Positions 786-11,272 of a stretch of DNA of 64,000 nt are shown piece by piece; position 1 is the stretch's first letter; every line of letters begins with the position of its first letter. The stretch comes from Saprospiraceae bacterium (GTDB lineage: Bacteria > Bacteroidota > Bacteroidia > Chitinophagales > Saprospiraceae). The DNA lies in contig JAJCYI010000072.1 in the NCBI GenBank assembly GCA_029263015.1, positions 1 to 64,000 on the forward strand. The letters run 5' to 3'. Position numbers and translations under genes: made by a program. Below the pieces are notes generated by a model that ran no database searches, was not told the origin of the DNA, and was given only the letters and a program-made list of their open reading frames with translations.

Positions 786-2681
786 ATGAGTGATTTTATC
801 AAACACGAATGTGGTGTTGCAATGATCCGCTTGCTGAAGCCATTTGATTATTACATCGAAAAATACGGGACTGCCCTGTATGGCCTCAACAAACTTCAAT
901 TGTTGATGGAAAAACAACGGAACCGCGGCCAGGACGGGGCAGGCCTTGCCTCAGTAAAACTATACAGCAAACCTGGCAACAAAATCATTAACAGAAAGCG
1001 GAGCAATGGCCAAAAAGCGATCCAATCCATTTTCAGGGATGTGTATGGCAATTTCAACAAATTATCAAAAGAGAAAAGGAAAGATGTGCAGTGGATGAAG
1101 GAAAACGTACCATATTTGGGGGAGCTGATACTTGGCCACCTTCGTTATGGCACGCACGGAATAAATAGTGTAAAAAACTGTCACCCTTTCATTCGGAAAA
1201 GTAACTGGATCAACCGGACCTTGGTGATGGCAGGCAATTTCAACCTCACCAATGTTGATGAACTGTTCGACGAACTGGTAGGATATGGCCAATATCCCAT
1301 GGAACGAACCGATACCGTCACCGTTATGGAAAAAATCGGCCATTTTCTCGATGCCGAGGTTCAGCGACTTCATGCCTGGTATAAGCACGATTCCCATACC
1401 AACGAGGAGATCAATGAACTGATATTTGAGAACCTTGACATCCAAAAAATACTGAAAAAAGCTACCCGGGACTTTGATGGTGGATACACGATGGCTGGTG
1501 TGATCGGCCACGGTGATGCGTTTGTGGTGCGCGATCCCAATGGCATTCGGCCCGCATTCTATTACCAAGACGATGAGGTGGTCGTGGCGACTTCGGAGCG
1601 CCCTCCCATCCAGACGGCTTTCAATGTGCATATTTCAGAAGTGAAAGAAATCGAGCCTGGCCATGCGCTGATCGTCAGGAGGAATGGAACGGTGAGCCAA
1701 GTGCCTTTTGCCGAGCAGGGCGAACAGAAATCCTGTTCATTCGAGCGTATTTATTTTTCCCGTGGGAATGACCGGGATATTTATTCTGAAAGAAAAAAAC
1801 TTGGGGAGGAACTGGCAGAAAGGGTGCTTCAGGCGGTGGATTTCAACGTGGATCAAACCGTTTTTTCTTTTGTTCCAAATACAGCTGAAAGTGCTTTTGA
1901 AGGGATGGTGAAAGGTGTCGAAAAACGCTTGGTACACCTGAAGGCAGAAAAGGTAAAAGCACTGGGTAAAGATGCGGACATTGATGTAATAAAAAAGATC
2001 ATCTCCCAAACTGCGAGGGTGGAAAAACTCGTGCATAAAGATGCCAAACTCCGCACCTTCATCGCCGATGACGGTTCACGGGGCAACCTTGTTACGCATG
2101 GCTATGATGTTACCTATGGCATTGTCCAAAACGACGTTGACAACCTAGTGCTGCTGGACGACAGTATTGTTCGGGGCACAACTCTGCGCAATAGCATTAT
2201 CCGAATTGCAGCACGATTGCGCCCGAAAAAAATCATTATAGTTTCCAGCGCCCCCCAGATCCGTTACCCCGATTGCTATGGCATCGATATGTCAAAGATG
2301 AAAGATTTTGTTGCTTTTCAGGCATTGGTTGCCCTGCTGAAGGAAAACGGTAAAACCAACCTGCTGGACGAAGCATACGAGCGATGTGTCGCACAAAAGG
2401 ATCTTCCGAAAGAGGAAATAAAAAATGAAGTAAAACCACTTTATAGCACTTTCACATTAGAAGAAATCTCCAAAAAGATCGCCGAACTCGTCACGCCGCC
2501 CGAGGGTATCAAGCCAGAAGTGGAGGTCATTTACCAAAACCTGGAAGGACTGCACAAGGCCTGTCCCAATCACCTCGGCGATTGGTACTTCTCCGGCAAC
2601 TTCCCCACGCCTGGCGGGAATAGGGTGGTGAACAGGGCTTTTATGATTTATATGGAAGGGAAGGATGAAAGGGCGTATTGA
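786..2681 (+). CDS. purF: Amidophosphoribosyltransferase (PurF-type), 631 aa
   Basis: First committed step of purine synthesis: glutamine plus PRPP gives phosphoribosylamine. The ATG at 786 (MSDFIKHECGV) is chosen because it puts the likely catalytic Cys at residue 9; the open frame upstream of it is not family-like. Class II glutaminase motifs are visible (RGQDGAGLAS, GHLRYGTHG, RDPNGIRP). The PRPP-binding loop LLDDSIVRGTT is near residue 455. At about 630 residues it is longer than the usual 450-500 residue PurF, as in the long form I associate with Bacteroidota, with extra sequence between and after the two domains. It converges with the OmpA-type gene, with 9 bp between the stop codons. 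A TACCTTTG box at 699-706 is a possible promoter element. Confidence 0.9.
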   Translation: MSDFIKHECGVAMIRLLKPFDYYIEKYGTALYGLNKLQLLMEKQRNRGQDGAGLASVKLYSKPGNKIINRKRSNGQKAIQSIFRDVYGNFNKLSKEKRKDVQWMKENVPYLGELILGHLRYGTHGINSVKNCHPFIRKSNWINRTLVMAGNFNLTNVDELFDELVGYGQYPMERTDTVTVMEKIGHFLDAEVQRLHAWYKHDSHTNEEINELIFENLDIQKILKKATRDFDGGYTMAGVIGHGDAFVVRDPNGIRPAFYYQDDEVVVATSERPPIQTAFNVHISEVKEIEPGHALIVRRNGTVSQVPFAEQGEQKSCSFERIYFSRGNDRDIYSERKKLGEELAERVLQAVDFNVDQTVFSFVPNTAESAFEGMVKGVEKRLVHLKAEKVKALGKDADIDVIKKIISQTARVEKLVHKDAKLRTFIADDGSRGNLVTHGYDVTYGIVQNDVDNLVLLDDSIVRGTTLRNSIIRIAARLRPKKIIIVSSAPQIRYPDCYGIDMSKMKDFVAFQALVALLKENGKTNLLDEAYERCVAQKDLPKEEIKNEVKPLYSTFTLEEISKKIAELVTPPEGIKPEVEVIYQNLEGLHKACPNHLGDWYFSGNFPTPGGNRVVNRAFMIYMEGKDERAY

Positions 2682-2690
2682 TTCGCATTA

Positions 2691-3527
2691 TTAATTGGAT
2701 ACGACCCGAAATTCGGTTCGCTCATTTTCCAAATGCTCTGCCTCGGAGCAATCAACGCTATCCTTGCAACGGTTTTTCAAACGGTCTTCCCCAAACCCTA
2801 TTGCCGTCAGGCGGCTACGTTGTATTCCCATTGAAATTAGGTGTTCGGCTACTGCTTCTGCCCGCTTATGGGACAAGTTGCGGTTGTCTTCCGCTTCTCC
2901 ACGGGCATCTGTATGGGAACTGATTTCTACTCTAATATTAGGCTCGTCTTCCATCAACTCGAACAAAGAACTGTTGATTGTTTTTTTGCCTTCATCGTGC
3001 AATTCGCTGCTTTCCGGGCTGAAATAGATGGGCAGTTTGTTATAATCCAATAGGGCGCATTCGATTTCTTCCCAAACGGCTAGCCCTCCCATATCTTGTA
3101 TTTGCTGGGTCTCAAAATAACGGTATTCGAATAACTCTGTTTTGGCCGTGTCTTTCACCACTATTATTTCTAGTGTTTTCTCTGGGTCTGTTCCATAACA
3201 TAAAACCATGCAGTCCTTTGGATCGCTTGATCGGCAGTCCTCGGTTTTCAATCTATATGTCAATCTTTTGACGGTTGGGCTTAATACCAGGGTAAGGGTG
3301 TCTAATAGAGAAGCATCTATATCGCCCCCTGTGTAGATAGGGTAAACCCCCTCCTGTTTTTGATATGTTTCAGATGTAAAACGCCTGATGTAGCATTTGT
3401 CGAGAGTAGGGTTGTCAGATGAACGCTCCTGGGTTTTGAAACTGCTTTCCTCTGGTTCGCTCATATACTTGCTGATATTGCAGCCAATGCTTGAAAGGAG
3501 GAGGAGGTAAATGAGCAAGTTTTTCAT
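2691..3527 (-). CDS. OmpA-family lipoprotein, 278 aa
   Basis: The signal sequence ends in a lipobox (LLLLSSIGC, Cys16), so this is a predicted lipoprotein. The middle part is unassigned. Residues about 165-278 form an OmpA C-terminal peptidoglycan-binding domain: YFSPESSELHDEGK, then RVEISSHTDARGEAEDNRNL, then LSHKRAEAVAEHL and a C-terminal NERTEFRV. It probably tethers the outer membrane to the cell wall. It is a single gene, transcribed toward purF. The Cys pairs in the C-terminal part (RCKD...DCSE) suggest a disulfide. Confidence 0.85.
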   Translation of the reverse strand: MKNLLIYLLLLSSIGCNISKYMSEPEESSFKTQERSSDNPTLDKCYIRRFTSETYQKQEGVYPIYTGGDIDASLLDTLTLVLSPTVKRLTYRLKTEDCRSSDPKDCMVLCYGTDPEKTLEIIVVKDTAKTELFEYRYFETQQIQDMGGLAVWEEIECALLDYNKLPIYFSPESSELHDEGKKTINSSLFELMEDEPNIRVEISSHTDARGEAEDNRNLSHKRAEAVAEHLISMGIQRSRLTAIGFGEDRLKNRCKDSVDCSEAEHLENERTEFRVVSN

Positions 3528-3863
3528 GGATAAGGTGGTTAGGTGGGGTGGCCTTGGTTTTTTTTACAAGTGCAAAAGTATATTTTCAAAAATCATCCAG
3601 AAAATAACTTCTGAATTTTGGGCTCATGTTCTCAAGGTCCTGGTTTTCGAGATTTCGGCCACTTTGAAAGCAGTGTCTTTGACCGCTCCAGAATACTGCC
3701 CACGGGCAATTTCGGAAATTTCGCCCAGAACCAAACTGCAGGATTTCCGAAATTCGCCATGAACCTGACGTTTGCGCTGGGTTTGGCCTCCGATAATGGG
3801 TTTACTGAAATTTCGGAAACCAGCAAATCATGTAACATGAGCGAATGGCTTATCAAATGACAA
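3528..3863. other. Intergenic region, motif repeats only
   Basis: There is no convincing gene in these 336 bases. Short open frames on both strands look like noise. The motif ATTTCGGAAAT or half of it recurs several times between about 3645 and 3825 in both orientations, which makes the region weakly palindromic. No terminator with a T-tract is obvious. Confidence 0.4.
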
Positions 3864-4131
3864 CTAAATTCCCGTATCCAAACTGGAGTGGCCAAATATA
3901 AGTTCTTGCAATATGTCTGGCTCTCGCTCAATTTGATTTCTGCACATTTTCAATGCAGTTGGAAACGACCGAATTTCGCTTTCTATTTCATTCCAGCTTT
4001 TCTGCTGAAAATATATGTTCCTCAAAATAGAATTCAATAATTCGCTCCGGTTGTCATCACAATAATTGAGGCATAGGTTGTCAATCATATATTGAACCCT
4101 TTTCGATGGGGTGTATTTCAAAACTTCGGTT

Positions 4132-5315
4132 TCAAGCAGCTAATCGGTTAACTCGGTCAACCACTAAATCCCATCTTTGACTTTTAAAACATACTCTCAA
4201 ACTCAGCATTTTTTGAGCCCCTCCGTTTGACCATCTTTGTCCGGATCTTTTCATTCTTTGCTGAACCAAAGTCCGATGGGATGCTTCTATTGCTCCGGAA
4301 CCAATTTGGAGGCCCAAGCTTCGGTACAACTTATAATTCATTCGATTTTTATTTTTGTCCAAATACCGGATTTCTGTAAATTTTGTGTCTACTTGTTCGG
4401 GGGTCTTTGCTTTTAGTCCCCGTATGGAATCCAGCACTTGTTCCGTCCTGCTTTCCAATAGCCACTCCTTGTTCTGGTTTAACCAACTTTTAAACCTGGC
4501 GGGGTCATTTATTAACAGTTTGCCGATTTTGGACAAATGCTCTGTTACGTGATAATAATCCAATATGGCCCTGGCCCCGGGGTAGTTTTTCTTTATCCAA
4601 TTGTCTATCCAAATAGCCCCGTCCGTAACAAATACCAGCCTTTTCCCCAGTGATCTGTAATGGCTGATGCCCTTGTCAAAAATCTCCGTAAAACCAGTAC
4701 AGTGCCCTAAATGGGAAGCATATTGAGAATTTGTAACTTGCTGTCTGTTAGTACCTTTGCTCTGCTTTTCAATATCTGATTGCCGGAATACCCTGCCGAC
4801 TTTTACTTCCTGCCAGCCATCGTCGGTAAAGATCATTCCACCATCCATCTGAGCATAAACCACATCGTCCGGGCACACCTCCATTCGGGGCATGTCTTTT
4901 TTCAACCCCTCATCTATCAGCCCACCATAAGTGTCGGTAATACGGTAAAGCTGACTTGTGCTTATTTTGACTCTCAACAGTTTTTCAACGGTCTGGCCAG
5001 CCTGCCCATAAACTTCCATTTGGCAGATGAAAGTGGCCTGCTCCTGAAGATATGGACTGACCTTAAACCCGTTCAGGGGCTTGCTGAACGGATGGGTATT
5101 TTTGATAGATACTTTCCCGAAACGGGTCAGGATTTTTTTTTAACACGGTGGTCTTTTCCCGGGGAACTAATGTTTCGTTCCATAACCTCACGGCCTAGTT
5201 CAAGCCAAACCTCTTCAAACCTTTTTTCGTATTCGTAAAACTTTTTTTCCTTTTTCAGTTGCTCTAATTCCGGCCATTTTTCGACAGCCAACTTGAGAAA
5301 TTCTTTTTTGTCCAT
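4132..5315 (-). CDS. ISKra4-like transposase, two frames joined by a -1 shift
   Basis: The N-terminal frame (5315-5127) starts MDKKEFLKLAVEKWPELEQL and stops just after a run of nine A (plus-strand T at 5133-5141). A second frame, shifted by -1, continues at once with LTRFGKVSIKNTHPFSKPLN and runs through ICQMEVYGQAGQTV to the stop at 4132. Catalytic-type features are an Asp-containing segment (AQMDGGMIF), YYHVTEHLSKIGK and the C-terminal IGSGAIEASHRTLVQQRMKR with SGQRWSNGGAQ. Total about 394 residues. The A9 run could allow programmed -1 slippage or be an inactivating frameshift. Confidence 0.8.
5127..5141 (-). other. A9 slippery run at the transposase frame junction
   Basis: On the minus strand the sequence reads GTT followed by nine A, then TCC TGA. 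In the zero frame translation ends at this TGA. Slipping back one base on the A run opens the long second frame directly. The A-AAA-AAA heptamer is a classic -1 slippery sequence in insertion sequences. No downstream pseudoknot was worked out. Alternatively this is a one-base indel in a homopolymer. Confidence 0.55.
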
Positions 5316-5801
5316 AATATGTGATTTCTCAGCAAGATACTATCTTACACCGAAATTTTGAAATACACCCCATGCGTTGACAAATCATATTCAAGCAAAT
5401 AAAAAGGGTCGTAATTTTCTCCGGCAGGTTTTAATATAGAATCAATTGGTTTTTTTCCTTTGAATTTGACTGAATTAACTTCAGCGTCCACCATGAAGAA
5501 ATTCCCCCAAAGCCATCCTTTTTTTTCTTTCCGGTTAGGGTCAAAATGATCAAGGCTGCCTTTTTGTTTTGAATGAATTGCCGAGAAATAATGGCCATCC
5601 TGCCAATTGTCTTCAGCTAAATATTCAGGTTTGCAAAGTATTTGTTCCGTATATGCACATAGCCCATTTTGGCAATGGTATAATTGCATGATTATATCCA
5701 GATAATATCGGCCATTTGAGGAAGTGTATTTCCCGTGAGGCAAACCTTGCTCTTCAATGTTTTTTTCCCAGGCTTTGTAAACAGTAGAAAGGTTGCAATT
5801 T

Positions 5802-7124
5802 TTATTGATTTTTCTCATGTCTTGATATTGCCCAAGTACCCGAAAGGTCGTCTGACAAACGGAGGTATTTTTTGATTATACTTTTGTTTTCGGGGGTTGG
5901 ATTTTTTATTTCATCTTTTGAGAGATCCTTTACTTTGTCTTTTAAAATAGAAAGTTCTTGCATTTTTTCAGAACGCTTTTTGTCACTTCCTCTTGTGAGG
6001 TCAAATATCCTGGTCAATATTTGGTCGTAACGTAATATCTGTGGGTCGAGTCGATAATTTTTCACATGATTCTCCCCTTCATAATATTTCTCCCGATATA
6101 CTTTTCCGTTACTGTCAAATTTTAATTCTACTATTTCCCATGGTTCAAAAGAAGAAGCAATAATGGGCGAATGTGTCGCAAAAAAGAATTGTGAATTTTT
6201 TTCTTTATCGAAAGAAGTGTAATAATCTATTATTTCTTTTTGAATGTCGGGGTATAATGAATTTTCGGGTTCGTCCATAAGGACAATGCTGTCAGGTTTT
6301 AATAATTGATAGATAGGGAAAGCGGTATAGATTATTTGTTTTGTACCGGTGCTTAAATTTTCATAAGAAATAACATTATTATCGTCCAGCGATTTAATCG
6401 GCAGAATGTCTTTTTCTCGTACATCATCAATTTCTGTTTTTACGGCAAGATGAAAACGGTTTAGGAAAATATCAAGGCATTCTTTAGCGACAATCTCTGT
6501 TGGGTTTGGGTTTTCTTTTTTCCAAGTTTCAAGTTCTCCTTTAATGTTTTCAATTTTTTTGTCTATTAATTTTAAACGAAAATTTATTGAATCATTTTTA
6601 TGATCTTTTATTTTCTCAAAATATTCTTTCCATATTTTCTCTAATTTACCTTCATCGATTTTGTGAAAAAAAGGGGCGGTTTTATTTTCATATTTAACTG
6701 TAGATTCTTCAGCTATTAGAATGCTATTTTCTGGGTTTTCATTTTTGATATAAAAATTTGCAATTCCCGCAGGGAAAAATAATAAAGCATTTATTGAACC
6801 ACCATGTTCTGGGTAAAAAGTTTTCGGATCGCCATTGTCAACTTCTATTGGCCAACTGAATCTTTTTGTCCAAAATTTGAACTTCCTCAAAGAGCTTGGA
6901 GGATCGACAGGAACAAGTACACTTACATCCTCCTTTAGCTGTGAGTGTAAGCATGCATTTTTTATTTCCTCCAACAACGTTGTCTTCCCCGTCCCACTCT
7001 GCCCAATAAAACAAACTTTATCCAAAGGCTGCCCTTCTTTCTTATGCCGTTTCGGATAAGTCAAGTCCAGTTCAAAATCCTCGAACTGGTGATATTTTGA
7101 TATTTTTATTTTGCTTATTTTCAT
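5802..7124 (-). CDS. PtuA-like AAA/ABC-type ATPase (Septu-like defence), 440 aa
   Basis: SMC/ABC-like ATPase of the kind that pairs with an HNH nuclease in Septu antiphage systems. Visible motifs are the Walker A GQSGTGKTT near residue 42, the signature-like LSTGTKQ, the Walker B IVLMDEPENSLYP and the switch histidine FFATHSP. The middle (about 165-235) is charged and helical. It overlaps the HNH gene by 17 bp, which suggests translational coupling. It lies 38 bp downstream of a RecD2-like helicase on the same strand, so the three may be co-transcribed. The partner gene is broken by an insertion sequence, so the pair is probably not functional as it stands. The assignment rests on motifs and gene pairing; other AAA-HNH systems, such as retron-associated ones, look similar. 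Confidence 0.75.
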   Translation of the reverse strand: MKISKIKISKYHQFEDFELDLTYPKRHKKEGQPLDKVCFIGQSGTGKTTLLEEIKNACLHSQLKEDVSVLVPVDPPSSLRKFKFWTKRFSWPIEVDNGDPKTFYPEHGGSINALLFFPAGIANFYIKNENPENSILIAEESTVKYENKTAPFFHKIDEGKLEKIWKEYFEKIKDHKNDSINFRLKLIDKKIENIKGELETWKKENPNPTEIVAKECLDIFLNRFHLAVKTEIDDVREKDILPIKSLDDNNVISYENLSTGTKQIIYTAFPIYQLLKPDSIVLMDEPENSLYPDIQKEIIDYYTSFDKEKNSQFFFATHSPIIASSFEPWEIVELKFDSNGKVYREKYYEGENHVKNYRLDPQILRYDQILTRIFDLTRGSDKKRSEKMQELSILKDKVKDLSKDEIKNPTPENKSIIKKYLRLSDDLSGTWAISRHEKNQ

Positions 7125-7162
7125 AAGTATCGAGTTTTAAAATACCAAAGTTACAACAAAAT

Positions 7163-9322
7163 CTATCTCCCCATCGCCTCCCCCAATCCCGTAAACCGCT
7201 TCCCTGCCCCGTCATTCCGCACGGCCATATACAGCGCCTTTTTCGATCCTACCAGAATCACCAGTTTTTTGCCCCTCGTGATGCCGGTGTAGATCAAATT
7301 CCGGTACAGCATCATATAATGAGAAGTATGGATGGGGATAATGATGCAGGGGCACTCGCTGCCCTGGTACTTGTGGATGCTCACCGAGTAGGCCAGCGTC
7401 AGTTGGTCGAGGTCGGTGAAGTCGTAGGTGATGTCCCGGCCATCTATTTCCACGATCAATTCATGTTCCTCTCGGTCAATGTGGCGTATGTAGCCGACGT
7501 CGCCGTTGAATACATCTAAGTCATAATTGTTGCGGAGCTGCATCACCTTGTCGTTGATGTGGAAAGTGCGACCCAGCTTGACGAGTGGGTCATAACTCGG
7601 ATTGAGTTTTTTTTGTAAAACCTCGTTGAGGTTGCGGTTGCCGATGGTGCCTCGGTTCATCGGGCTGAGCACTTGAATGTCGAGGAAGGAATCGAATTTG
7701 TACGCCTTCGGCAATCGGGTCTCGACTAACTGGGTGATAATGGCAGGTATTTTTTCTGAATCCTCTTGTTCCATAAAAAAGAAATCGCTGTCCTTAACAT
7801 TTGAGATGTCAGGGAACTCTCCTGCATTCACCCGGTGGGCGTTGGTGATGATCCTCGAATGGGCGGCCTGCCGGAATATTTCTGTTAAACGGGTCAACGG
7901 AATTTTATCCGAATCAATCAAGTCTTGCAGTACACTGCCTGCTCCCACGCTTGGCAACTGATCCGCATCACCCACAAGGATTAAACGGGCAGTAGTTGGC
8001 ACTGCTTTCAGTAAATTGTACATCAGTACTGTATCGATCATGCTGGCCTCGTCAACGATCAACAGGTCGCAGTCGAGTGGATTTTCCTTGTTTTTTTTAA
8101 ATCCATTTATCGAAAAATCAAACTCCAGCAAAGTGTGGATGGTGCTGGCCTTCATGCCTGTGATTTCAGCCATCCTTTTGGCGGCACGGCCAGTCGGGGC
8201 AGCGAGCAATATTTTGCTGGTCATTTGGTGGCTGACCAGCAGTATGACTTTGGTGATGGTGCTTTTTCCCGTGCCCGGTCCGCCAGTGATGATATGGACT
8301 TTTTCGTTCAAAGATTTTCCTACGGCCAGGCGTTGGTTGTCCGCCAATTGGATGCCCAATTTCTTTTCTGCCCATGCGACAGCCTCTTTCTTTTTCACAG
8401 CCCGCAGGCCTGACATGCCATTAATCAAGCGTTTCAACTCTTTGCCAATGCCTTGTTCACAGACGTGGAAGAGTTGTAGCCAAACACATGCAACTGGCTC
8501 ATTGTCAACTATCAACGGTGCAGTCAGGATGCGTTTTTCTTGTTCTATGAATGCCAGTCGGGCAGCGATGAGGTTGGCATTCACTTCTAACAATTCTTGT
8601 GCTTTTTCGAGAAATTTATCAACTGGAAAACAAGTGTGCCCGTTATCAGAAATTTGGTGGAGGGCATATTCCACTCCAGCATCGATACGGATGTCGCTTT
8701 CCTTTTTTATGCCCATTTTTTGGGCCGTCTGGTCAGCCGTCTTGAAACCGATGCCCCAGATGTCGCGGGCCAATTGGAAGGGATTGTCTTTGATGACCCT
8801 GATACTGTCATCGCCATAAGTTTTGAAAACCTTTTGTGCATAGGTCGGGCTGATGCCATAGCCCATGAGAAAGGTCATCACTTCCCGAATGGCTTTTTGT
8901 TCCGACCATCCTGCTTTAATTTTTTCCAAACGCTTTGGTCCGATGCCGTCAATATCTTCTTGCAGCATGTCGGGGTTCTCATCAATAATGTCCAGCGTTT
9001 TTTCACCGTACTTGTTGACGATCTGTTCGGCGAAGTGCTTGCCGACACCTTTTATCATGCCGCTGGCGAGGTATTTTTTTATGCCTCGGATGGTAGCTGG
9101 TTGGGTGACCTGGTAGTCTTGTACTACGAATTGAAAACCAAATTTTGGGTCGTTTTTCCAAGATCCATCGCAGCGTAGTGTTTCCCCCACCTGCACCGAG
9201 GTCATGGTGCCGACGATGGTGGTGAGTTCTGCTTTTCCGCTTTCTTGTAGGCGTGCGACCGTCCAGCCGTTTTCGGCGTTCTGGAAAGTGATGCGTTCTA
9301 TGTGGCCGGTGATGGTGTCCAT
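7163..9322 (-). CDS. recD2: RecD2-like SF1B DNA helicase, 719 aa
   Basis: Predicted 5'-3' DNA helicase of the RecD2/YrrC type, which acts without RecBC. The N-terminal OB-like segment (GHIERITFQNAENGWTVARL) and helix-hairpin-helix segments (GIGPKRLEKIKAGW, DIWGIGFKTAD) precede the helicase core. Walker A GGPGTGKST is near residue 350. Also visible are the motifs AAPTGRAAKRM, LLIVDEASM, LVGDADQLPSVG and a C-terminal VSIHKYQGSE followed by YTGITRGKK. Length and domain order are as expected for the family. It sits between the Septu-like ATPase and the DUF5131 gene, and could be housekeeping or part of the defence region. Confidence 0.9.
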   Translation of the reverse strand: MDTITGHIERITFQNAENGWTVARLQESGKAELTTIVGTMTSVQVGETLRCDGSWKNDPKFGFQFVVQDYQVTQPATIRGIKKYLASGMIKGVGKHFAEQIVNKYGEKTLDIIDENPDMLQEDIDGIGPKRLEKIKAGWSEQKAIREVMTFLMGYGISPTYAQKVFKTYGDDSIRVIKDNPFQLARDIWGIGFKTADQTAQKMGIKKESDIRIDAGVEYALHQISDNGHTCFPVDKFLEKAQELLEVNANLIAARLAFIEQEKRILTAPLIVDNEPVACVWLQLFHVCEQGIGKELKRLINGMSGLRAVKKKEAVAWAEKKLGIQLADNQRLAVGKSLNEKVHIITGGPGTGKSTITKVILLVSHQMTSKILLAAPTGRAAKRMAEITGMKASTIHTLLEFDFSINGFKKNKENPLDCDLLIVDEASMIDTVLMYNLLKAVPTTARLILVGDADQLPSVGAGSVLQDLIDSDKIPLTRLTEIFRQAAHSRIITNAHRVNAGEFPDISNVKDSDFFFMEQEDSEKIPAIITQLVETRLPKAYKFDSFLDIQVLSPMNRGTIGNRNLNEVLQKKLNPSYDPLVKLGRTFHINDKVMQLRNNYDLDVFNGDVGYIRHIDREEHELIVEIDGRDITYDFTDLDQLTLAYSVSIHKYQGSECPCIIIPIHTSHYMMLYRNLIYTGITRGKKLVILVGSKKALYMAVRNDGAGKRFTGLGEAMGR

Positions 9323-9351
9323 GAATGGGCAAATATCGGGGAGAAAACAAA

Positions 9352-9385
9352 AGACCTACTAATTTATGTTAAAATAAGTAGGTCT
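9352..9385 (-). terminator. Rho-independent terminator after the TcmP/DUF5131 pair
   Basis: Arms AGACCTACT (9352-9360) and AGTAGGTCT (9377-9385) form a hairpin. Read on the minus strand it is followed by TTTTGTTTT. It lies just past the stop of the DUF5131 gene and 30 bp before the helicase start, so it separates the two transcription units. Confidence 0.7.
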
Positions 9386-9415
9386 AAAATTAAAAGGAAG
9401 TAAACAATCACTGAT

Positions 9416-10135
9416 TTAAGCAAGGCTACCAGTTAAGGGCATTTCATCATAAGTCTTTCCGTTAAGTGTTCTACCTGCTTTCTTTTTATTGGTGCCACCC
9501 CATTGCTTGAAAAAAAATGCGACTCCGTGTGCTTTACAGTTTTGTCTAATTTCTTCTACCCATTCTTTTTTCATGAGGCGCGGCTTTCGTCCACTTTCAC
9601 CTCCAACAATTACCCAATCTATCCCATTGATATTAAGACTTGGAAGTGGGGCAATCAAAGGCTCACAAGAAAGGAATTTTGTTTTAGCGTTTGTTCCTCT
9701 TAAATAATCGACTCGCTCTAAAACTTTTTCATCTTCTACCGATACCCCCATCCATATATTTTCTGTCCAATTTAATTCTTTGTGATATTCATATAATAAA
9801 TCACCCCTTTTTGTCAATACTTGAAATATGTGTTGAGGAAGATCATTCATTACTTTGAATACATCCTGAATGTAATCAAGCGGCACTTTTTCGTGAAATA
9901 AATCGCTCATAGAATTGACAAATACAACCTTTGGTTTTTTCCAAGTATAAGGAATATTCAAAGTTTCCGGATGTAATGTTAGTTCGAAGTTGTTTGCATA
10001 TTTTTCAACGCCCATTGCCTGTAGGCGACGAGACATGACTTCAGCATAACAATATTTGCAGCCTTGTGATATTTTGTTGCAGCCTGTTGTTGGGTTCCAG
10101 GTCATATCAGTCCATTCTATGCTTGATTGAGCCAT
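9416..10135 (-). CDS. DUF5131 / phage Gp37-Gp68 family protein, 239 aa
   Basis: The N-terminus, SIEWTDMTWNPTTGCNKIS, leads into three cysteines spaced C-x5-C-x2-C (GCNKISQGCKYCYAE), which look like a metal or iron-sulfur site reminiscent of radical SAM enzymes. Other conserved-looking segments are NSMSDLFHEKVP, QVLTKR, GVSVEDEKV, VIVGGESGRKPR and FFKQWGG. The family occurs in phages and next to TcmP genes. Its reaction is not known to me. It starts 9 bp after the tcmP stop, so the two are almost certainly one operon, closed by the terminator at 9352-9385. Confidence 0.85.
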   Translation of the reverse strand: MAQSSIEWTDMTWNPTTGCNKISQGCKYCYAEVMSRRLQAMGVEKYANNFELTLHPETLNIPYTWKKPKVVFVNSMSDLFHEKVPLDYIQDVFKVMNDLPQHIFQVLTKRGDLLYEYHKELNWTENIWMGVSVEDEKVLERVDYLRGTNAKTKFLSCEPLIAPLPSLNINGIDWVIVGGESGRKPRLMKKEWVEEIRQNCKAHGVAFFFKQWGGTNKKKAGRTLNGKTYDEMPLTGSLA

Positions 10136-10144
10136 GATACTTGA

Positions 10145-11272
10145 TTATTGTAGTTTGATTTTTGCACGAATTTTTTCACCTTCTTTATAATACTTATAGC
10201 TTATGTAGAACGATGATTTACGCACAGGTTTATTTTCCAAATCCAATACTTTTAGTCTTCCTTCTTTTTGAAGTTTATCAAGAATTTGATTTGTGTGTTT
10301 AGGTAAATGACCATTGAATAGAGTGAACTCATAAAGTTGTTTATTATTTACAGATCCTGTCCTCAAATAAGCCTCTATGCTTCTTTCAAACTTTTTAACG
10401 TTTGGAGTTTTTTCAAAAGTTGAAAAAAGGGTGTTTTCAGATTCGTAGCTCCAACCCCTGCCTTCTTCTTTATCAATTCCCCATTTGGCATCTAACATTC
10501 TATCAAATCCATAAATATGATTTGTAAAAAAGAACAGACAAAAAAACTGGTTAGTATCTCTTGAAATAACAAAGGAATCGACAAAATATGAATTCAATTT
10601 TTTCCTGAATGCATCAGTTAGGTTCTCAATGAATTCTAACCCAGTAGTACTCATAGGCCATTGGTTTTCTGGCACTAATTCCTCGATGAATTCTTTCAGG
10701 CTTTGGGGTGTGCCCTTTTCTACAAAACGAAACATATCTCGCGTTGGCAAAAACAATAAAACCTCTGAATTCCCAGAATCAAGTAAAGATTCAATGTCGC
10801 TAATGCGTATGTCTTTATAACCATAAGGATCAATAAAAATAAATGCCTTTGCCTTTTTTATTGATCTTATGTCTTTAGAAATTTTAGGCAGTAGGTCTCG
10901 ATAATCTTCGGTAGAGAAACGAATCTCGCCTATTTCTGCATGATGCAAATTACTCTCGCTAACAATTCTTTCTAGTTTTTCAACTTTATTATTCTGTAAA
11001 TCATTGAATAGACAATGAAATCCCATTGTTCTTTTTCGTTTAACTCTATTTGATTGATGAATGTCCTGAATTGTCTCTAGAATAGCCATCGGACTCCCTT
11101 TGCCACCGTTGTCATAAATTCCCTCACCACAGAAAAGATCATAAAGGAACACATTATCAATGTAAGGCGATTCGTTTAAAACATTAAGAAACCTTTCCAG
11201 GTAAGTTTTAAGAAGACGAATCTTAACTTCTGAATGTTGAAACATTGTAGTCTGGGAGTCTTTCAAGGCCAT
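10145..11272 (-). CDS. Three-Cys-motif partner protein TcmP, 375 aa
   Basis: Residues about 37-60 (FLYDLFCGEGIYDNGGKGSP) resemble motif I of SAM-dependent methyltransferases. AFIFIDPYGY near 145 resembles the DPPY-type motif IV. The C-terminal 80 residues look like a winged-helix (NKQLYEFTLFNGHLPKHTNQ). This matches the TcmP family, which is named for sitting beside the three-cysteine DUF5131 protein, exactly as here. The biochemical role is unknown; a nucleic-acid modifying pair is a reasonable inference from the two domain types. It is the first gene of the pair. Confidence 0.85.
   Translation of the reverse strand: MALKDSQTTMFQHSEVKIRLLKTYLERFLNVLNESPYIDNVFLYDLFCGEGIYDNGGKGSPMAILETIQDIHQSNRVKRKRTMGFHCLFNDLQNNKVEKLERIVSESNLHHAEIGEIRFSTEDYRDLLPKISKDIRSIKKAKAFIFIDPYGYKDIRISDIESLLDSGNSEVLLFLPTRDMFRFVEKGTPQSLKEFIEELVPENQWPMSTTGLEFIENLTDAFRKKLNSYFVDSFVISRDTNQFFCLFFFTNHIYGFDRMLDAKWGIDKEEGRGWSYESENTLFSTFEKTPNVKKFERSIEAYLRTGSVNNKQLYEFTLFNGHLPKHTNQILDKLQKEGRLKVLDLENKPVRKSSFYISYKYYKEGEKIRAKIKLQ

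Follow-up and report, generated by a model that had tools for sequence, protein, structure and literature searches.

In the 64,000-nt stretch of Saprospiraceae DNA analysed here (hereafter, the window), a gene pair downstream of recD2 is, with good probability, a Septu module of a threonine-bearing type whose nuclease gene was broken by an insertion sequence of the ISMich2 group, leaving an effector that is probably inactive or weakened. The locus lies on the minus strand (2691-9322) and comprises, in order, recD2, a PtuA-like ATPase gene, an HNH frame, the insertion sequence, a short frame and an OmpA-like gene (2691-3527). The recD2 helicase gene (7163-9322) is the conserved neighbour upstream of ptuA and anchors what proved to be a variable site. 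The PtuA-like gene (5802-7124) is an open frame of 440 aa and is followed by the N-terminal part of the HNH (PtuB-like) gene (5345-5818), which reads as 157 aa, i.e., 149 native residues and 8 contributed by the end of the insertion sequence. The element itself is 1264 bp long (4108-5371), and beyond it lies the C-terminal part of the HNH gene (3864-4107; 80 aa and a stop).

Family of the ATPase/HNH pair and its cysteine motif

The PtuA-like protein matched the PADLOC PtuA1 model (PDLC00274, E 2.3e-70) as well as AAA_15 (E 9.6e-23), and contains both a Walker A (GQSGTGKT) and a Walker B (LMDEPE) motif. The HNH fragment matched PADLOC PtuB1 (PDLC00347, E 4.8e-8) and the retron-associated HNH_I-A model (E 1.7e-5), and the same two models matched all five intact homologues scanned (P0001 against HNH_I-A, E 5.4e-11). 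The NCBIfam model for retron Ec78 PtuB also matched homologues P0001 (E 2.2e-6) and P0004 (E 7.4e-10), both far under its cut-off. These matches bear out the Septu-like identity proposed in an earlier, sequence-only reading of this DNA. In Pfam, the window's HNH parts gave no match at E values up to 1, and the HNH homologues gave only weak, unrelated matches and no clear family.

For more distant comparisons, we used a profile of five intact homologues from other genomes, made without any window sequence (the A2 profile). Against the PDB it matched PtuB chains at E 8.9e-5 to 0.016 (best four, others being weaker). In the three alignments shown, the C-terminal region of the solved PtuB chains aligned to that of the window's HNH family, and their CAYCE was placed on the window's CAYTE, the CAYCE stretch accounting for only 6-8 bits; the 9kjx chain, matched by P0004, likewise carries CAYCE. 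Judged by these comparisons, the window's HNH protein is only distantly similar to studied PtuB. Two AlphaFold runs of three HNH sequences each yielded mean pLDDT values of 37.4 and 41.3, too poor for the break to be placed in a fold.

As in Septu (PtuA-PtuB), the ATPase gene has an HNH gene directly downstream that overlaps or adjoins it, in the window and likewise in homologous loci, and the H and N of the HNH motif are kept. Unlike Septu, the second Cys of CAYC is Thr here, the later C-x2-C of many Cys-type loci is absent, sequence similarity is low, and the HNH gene is interrupted. The pair also resembles the PtuA/PtuB effectors of type I-A retrons (Ec78/Eco7, Ec83/Eco4) in the HNH_I-A match and the weak Ec78 PtuB match described above. 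However, no reverse transcriptase was found among the neighbouring ORFs scanned (RecD2, DUF5131, TcmP, OmpA, PurF-like and transposase), and for an msr-msd RNA, Rfam gave no match at the gathering score across 2600-9500; a retron was rejected on these two grounds. By its sequence, the pair is a two-gene Septu-type module, predicted to be anti-phage, and belongs to a branch of a known defence family that has drawn little attention.

We then considered the CAYTE motif, which the sequence-only reading had called degenerate and a possible mark of an unusual subtype. CAYC is present in all four solved PtuB sequences whose alignments were inspected, and the window departs from this C-x2-C pattern; since the PADLOC PtuB models still match, C-x2-C was not treated as a strict Septu requirement. 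Among the 16 intact homologues, the second-Cys position is Thr in 15 and Ser in one, so that degeneracy as a sign of decay was rejected, while the unusual subtype stands. A broader survey covered 51 loci matching the HNH profile, after exclusion of loci belonging to the window, of repeat retrievals of a gene and of everything from L071 onwards. A PtuA of the window's type (profile score of 90 or more) accompanied 21 of the 51, and every one of these had Thr or Ser (19 T, 2 S; the automatic count of 18 T and 3 S had taken an earlier motif in L021, whose true motif is CAYT). The other 30 comprised 18 with Cys, five with Thr (L009, L026, L041, L042 and L045) and seven in which no motif was found. 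Further Cys residues (e.g., CxxC) follow W-x-N-[LF] in many Cys-type loci, and CxxC was absent after W-x-N-[LF] in the Thr-type loci for which that stretch was printed. The Thr type is thus a stable branch, and its HNH presumably binds no zinc. Neither a Thr-type PtuB nor an interrupted Septu was found in the literature titles or abstract openings searched.

Two further observations concern this family. Three of the Thr loci (L041, L042 and L045) have frames of 571-582 aa with the HNH profile match near the N-terminus, two of them matching the PtuA profile weakly; these may be single-chain HNH-ATPase proteins of the Thr type. In addition, the window's genome has a second HNH gene (L029, G000:C161), of the C-x2-C type, with no PtuA match in its 1.5-kb flanks.

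The interrupted HNH gene and its insertion sequence

The window matched the A2 profile on both sides of the element: profile positions 1-148 fall at 5366-5818 (E 4.2e-64), 6 bases of which belong to one end of the element, and positions 154-216 fall at 3921-4121 (E 8.5e-8), 14 bases of which belong to the other end. The stranded 80-aa C-terminal part aligned to the ends of intact homologues. We then aligned the junction with 17 homologues, 16 intact and one broken. In the window, the native N-terminal part ends in LSTH (residue 149) and the native C-terminal part begins with SKRVQ; in all 17 homologues these are separated by 12-15 residues (most commonly 12), which are missing in the window save for one base of the linker stretch. 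Given the commonest linker length, about 35 bp of the HNH gene would be gone. From LSTH, the HNH frame enters the element for eight codons (GVYFKISV) and then meets a TAA at 5345-5347. It is thus well supported by the alignments that the HNH gene is truly one gene, interrupted in the linker between its HNH core and its C-terminal part.

Most of what had been read from the letters alone agrees with this. The two halves align to one uninterrupted family, the part beyond the element fits that family, the PtuA-like and HNH genes overlap by 17 bp (5802-5818), and intact alleles exist in relatives, namely at 16 loci with an open HNH gene. The proposed 1264-bp ISKra4-type element was likewise recovered, its ORFB matching the ISKra4 transposase model NF033572 (E 1.9e-50) between inverted repeats. 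One detail needs amending: the HNH frame had been said to stop inside the terminal repeat, and while the stop is within the element, it falls just past the 23-bp repeat (5349-5371) and outside it.

Comparison of the element's ends placed the left terminal inverted repeat (GGGGTGTATTTCAAAACTTCGGT) at 4108-4130 and the right one at 5349-5371; the two ends match without a difference for 16 bp and agree at 22 of their first 23 positions. Two transposase frames lie between them on the minus strand, ORFA (5127-5315, 62 aa) and ORFB (4132-5019, 295 aa from the first ATG). They stand in a -1 relation at a run of nine A (5133-5141), the presumed site of a -1 frameshift from ORFA to ORFB, predicted from the sequence, and the ORFB frame is open upstream of its first ATG as far as this run. 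ORFB scored 172 bits over positions 131-422 of the 422-position model; this falls short of the cut-off of 205 set for the whole protein, probably because the scan covered ORFB alone, starting at its ATG. The A9 run is also present in a relative of the element in genome G127 (about 70% identical). Seven related elements (L104-L109 and L117), out of 30 transposase loci, were examined, and an A8-A9 run precedes ORFB in six of them, the distant L117 being the one without. As the ISMich2 group has a conserved -1 frameshift according to PMC3942029, we assigned the element to this group of the ISKra4 family (p-MULT 4), which it resembles in its transposase family, its pair of ORFs offset by -1 at an A-run and its terminal inverted repeats.

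The window's copy is unlike the group in having no direct repeat and in missing about 35 bp of its target. For the group, PMC3942029 reports direct repeats 8 or 9 bp long, and perfect repeats of this length flank four of the seven related elements (L104, L105, L108 and L117). At the boundaries tested for the window's copy, no 8-9 bp direct repeat was found, and a search for repeats 6-10 bp long that allowed one mismatch returned nothing except one 5/6 match. Taken alone, this absence is weak evidence, since the three remaining related elements (L106, L107 and L109) also have none at their tested boundaries. Together with the roughly 12 missing codons, it led us to reject a clean insertion with target duplication, and suggests instead a small deletion during or after insertion, or recombination of two copies.

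These same features, i.e., the absent repeat and the missing 35 bp, would also be expected had the element been misassembled into an HNH gene that is intact in the real genome, and the genome is indeed a draft in 245 contigs. However, this draft holds a single complete copy of the element, which is assembled through inside a 75.9-kb contig, whereas elements present in several copies tend to be found where contigs break off, as is the case for the related element in G127. We therefore judge a misassembly highly improbable and take the interruption to be real. Elsewhere in the genome, tblastn detected a distant transposase (G000:C139, 29% identity). Two candidates for further copies were rejected: L002 (G000:C70, about 1380-1525) is a miniature element of about 146 bp whose ends are like those of the window's element and which has no room for a transposase, and L003 is a lone IS-like end.

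Functional state of the broken pair

The HNH fragment keeps C54, H91, N106 and N115, of which H91 and N106 are invariant in all five rows of the A2 alignment. In an E. coli Septu system, as described in PMC13096335, defence depends on the PtuA Walker motifs as well as on the H-N-H motif of PtuB, including H75 and N91 of the latter. By motif and spacing, we equate H91 and N106 of the window with these two residues. What the fragment has lost amounts to about 90 native residues (the 12 or so missing and the 80 beyond the element), and this region holds positions that are invariant in A2, e.g., R182, F210, T212, A213 and M216. Moreover, for retron-Eco7, PtuA alone or PtuB alone gave no growth arrest (PMC11555353). 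Given the lost conserved region and the inactivity of either retron-Eco7 protein alone, a silent system is likeliest; some activity may persist, since the truncated HNH keeps H91 and N106. The sequence-only reading had the pair as probably disabled. We likewise consider the Septu system of the window likely to be disabled or silent, with the qualification that the PtuA frame is open and the HNH catalytic core is kept.

The course of events can be pictured as follows. PtuA reportedly assembles with PtuB. Before the break, judging from the family, PtuA would have bound PtuB and restrained its activity, and upon infection the HNH protein would have cut nucleic acid, which in characterised relatives is DNA or tRNA, resulting in aborted infection. 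An element of the ISMich2 group would then have inserted in the linker that joins the HNH core to the C-terminal region, and during or after this insertion about 35 bp of the gene, along with any target duplication, would have been lost. The result would be an open PtuA frame beside a 157-aa HNH fragment lacking about 90 native residues, and an effector that is probably inactive or weakened. The C-terminal frame is still open, which suggests that the event was recent. As such, it is an ordinary kind of gene loss, with the nuclease gene split by a jumping gene and its partner gene intact.

A different outcome would be that the truncated HNH protein, i.e., the core with its 8-residue tail from the element, still works with PtuA, its C-terminal region being dispensable or supplied in trans. 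The latter would start from the first listed start of the C-terminal frame, a TTG at 4121 that lies within the element's end, 10 bases past the transposase stop. Neither PtuA nor the HNH core contains stops, and the four residues named above are kept. In addition, in another species of the genus (G006) the HNH gene has an in-frame TAA after residue 146, close to the 149 native residues of the window, again with an open PtuA. Two species of the genus thus have HNH genes that break off only a few codons apart, and by simple counting the chance of two breaks so close is a few per cent. However, the G006 assembly is fragmented (650 contigs) and its TAA may accordingly be an error; a third broken copy (L028, G384:C2), which matches only profile 82-211 and contains a TAG, shows no match to PtuA within 1.5 kb on either side; and the C-terminal part is kept in all 16 intact homologues, with its invariant positions in the five A2 rows. 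A working truncated protein is, on this balance, unlikely. We find it a little harder still to credit that loss of the PtuB C-terminus at this one linker is recurrent and tolerated or selected, with the short HNH-core form (146 and 157 aa) serving as an attenuated or retuned effector in a Cys-poor Septu branch. An effector that lost its function through the insertion remains our preferred reading.

Distribution of the pair and the site downstream of recD2

The HNH fragment found matches in five of 100 relatives, the window's own genome included, and at two loci of a GTDB contig collection. With the A2 profile, any match at all, counting distant ones and the window's genome, was obtained in 9/395 genomes of a phylum set, 28/398 of a family set and 22/396 of an order set, these three sets overlapping. 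Near-full-profile loci, each counted once, comprised 16 with open HNH genes and two with broken ones (the window and G006), with G757 (L033) counted as the same record as L010 on account of identical scores.

Within the genus, recD2 is present in 13 of 14 genomes, including that of the window, and we compared the region of the window with the 12 others. A PtuA-HNH pair lies downstream of recD2 in three of these regions: the window, G006 and G009. In G009 the HNH gene is open, and ptuA is set off from recD2 by about 0.45 kb of additional sequence (L097, about 3069-3512), which contains a 90-bp duplicate of the 3' end of recD2 together with a short array of GTGCGAACAAAATTGT-like tandem repeats. 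G010, whose recD2 shows the highest similarity (88%), retains 94 bp from the start of ptuA, 92.6% identical, at about 7690-7783 of locus L091. Beyond it is an opposite-strand pair (5754-7684) matching PADLOC AbiLi (E 1.9e-92) and AbiLii (E 3.1e-21), and this AbiL-like pair likely replaced Septu at the same site. Two regions (G007 and G011) have a similar-looking ATPase gene at the place of ptuA, and the other seven gave no match to the window's PtuA. Overall, this site appears to be a hotspot of defence turnover.

Around recD2 itself, two other features were noted. In G008, the 5' end of recD2 (residues 1-33) occurs an additional time about 6 kb ahead of the complete gene (L092, about 1973-2071 in the orientation of recD2), which hints that an insertion took place at the gene's other end. 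In the window, DUF5131 and TcmP-like genes adjoin each other upstream of recD2 (9416-11272, minus strand) and correspond to the PADLOC candidate system PDC-M30 (E 2.7e-125 and 1.1e-140).

The distribution also bears on whether the pair is instead a housekeeping ATPase/nuclease unit. Such a role would fit the intact homologue P0001, which had no match in the phage or plasmid records searched. Against it stand the patchy presence of the profile in the three genome sets, the location at a site that is occupied by an AbiL-like pair in a relative, and the occurrence of broken copies in three genomes, and we hold a housekeeping role to be very improbable. Taking the pair as a Septu-type defence module, the recD2 site offers a compact case of defence-gene turnover, in which sister species carry Septu intact, broken, or as a scar beside an AbiL-like pair.

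Taken together, the window provides a naturally broken Septu effector allele. Its partner gene is open, and a congeneric species has an intact homologue at the corresponding position. PtuB proteins with CAY[TS]E form a non-degenerate branch that is found repeatedly across genomes of the phylum. This branch and the recD2 site are more useful than the insertion event, which is ordinary, and they make a question testable: are the C-x2-C site and the C-terminal part needed by PtuB?
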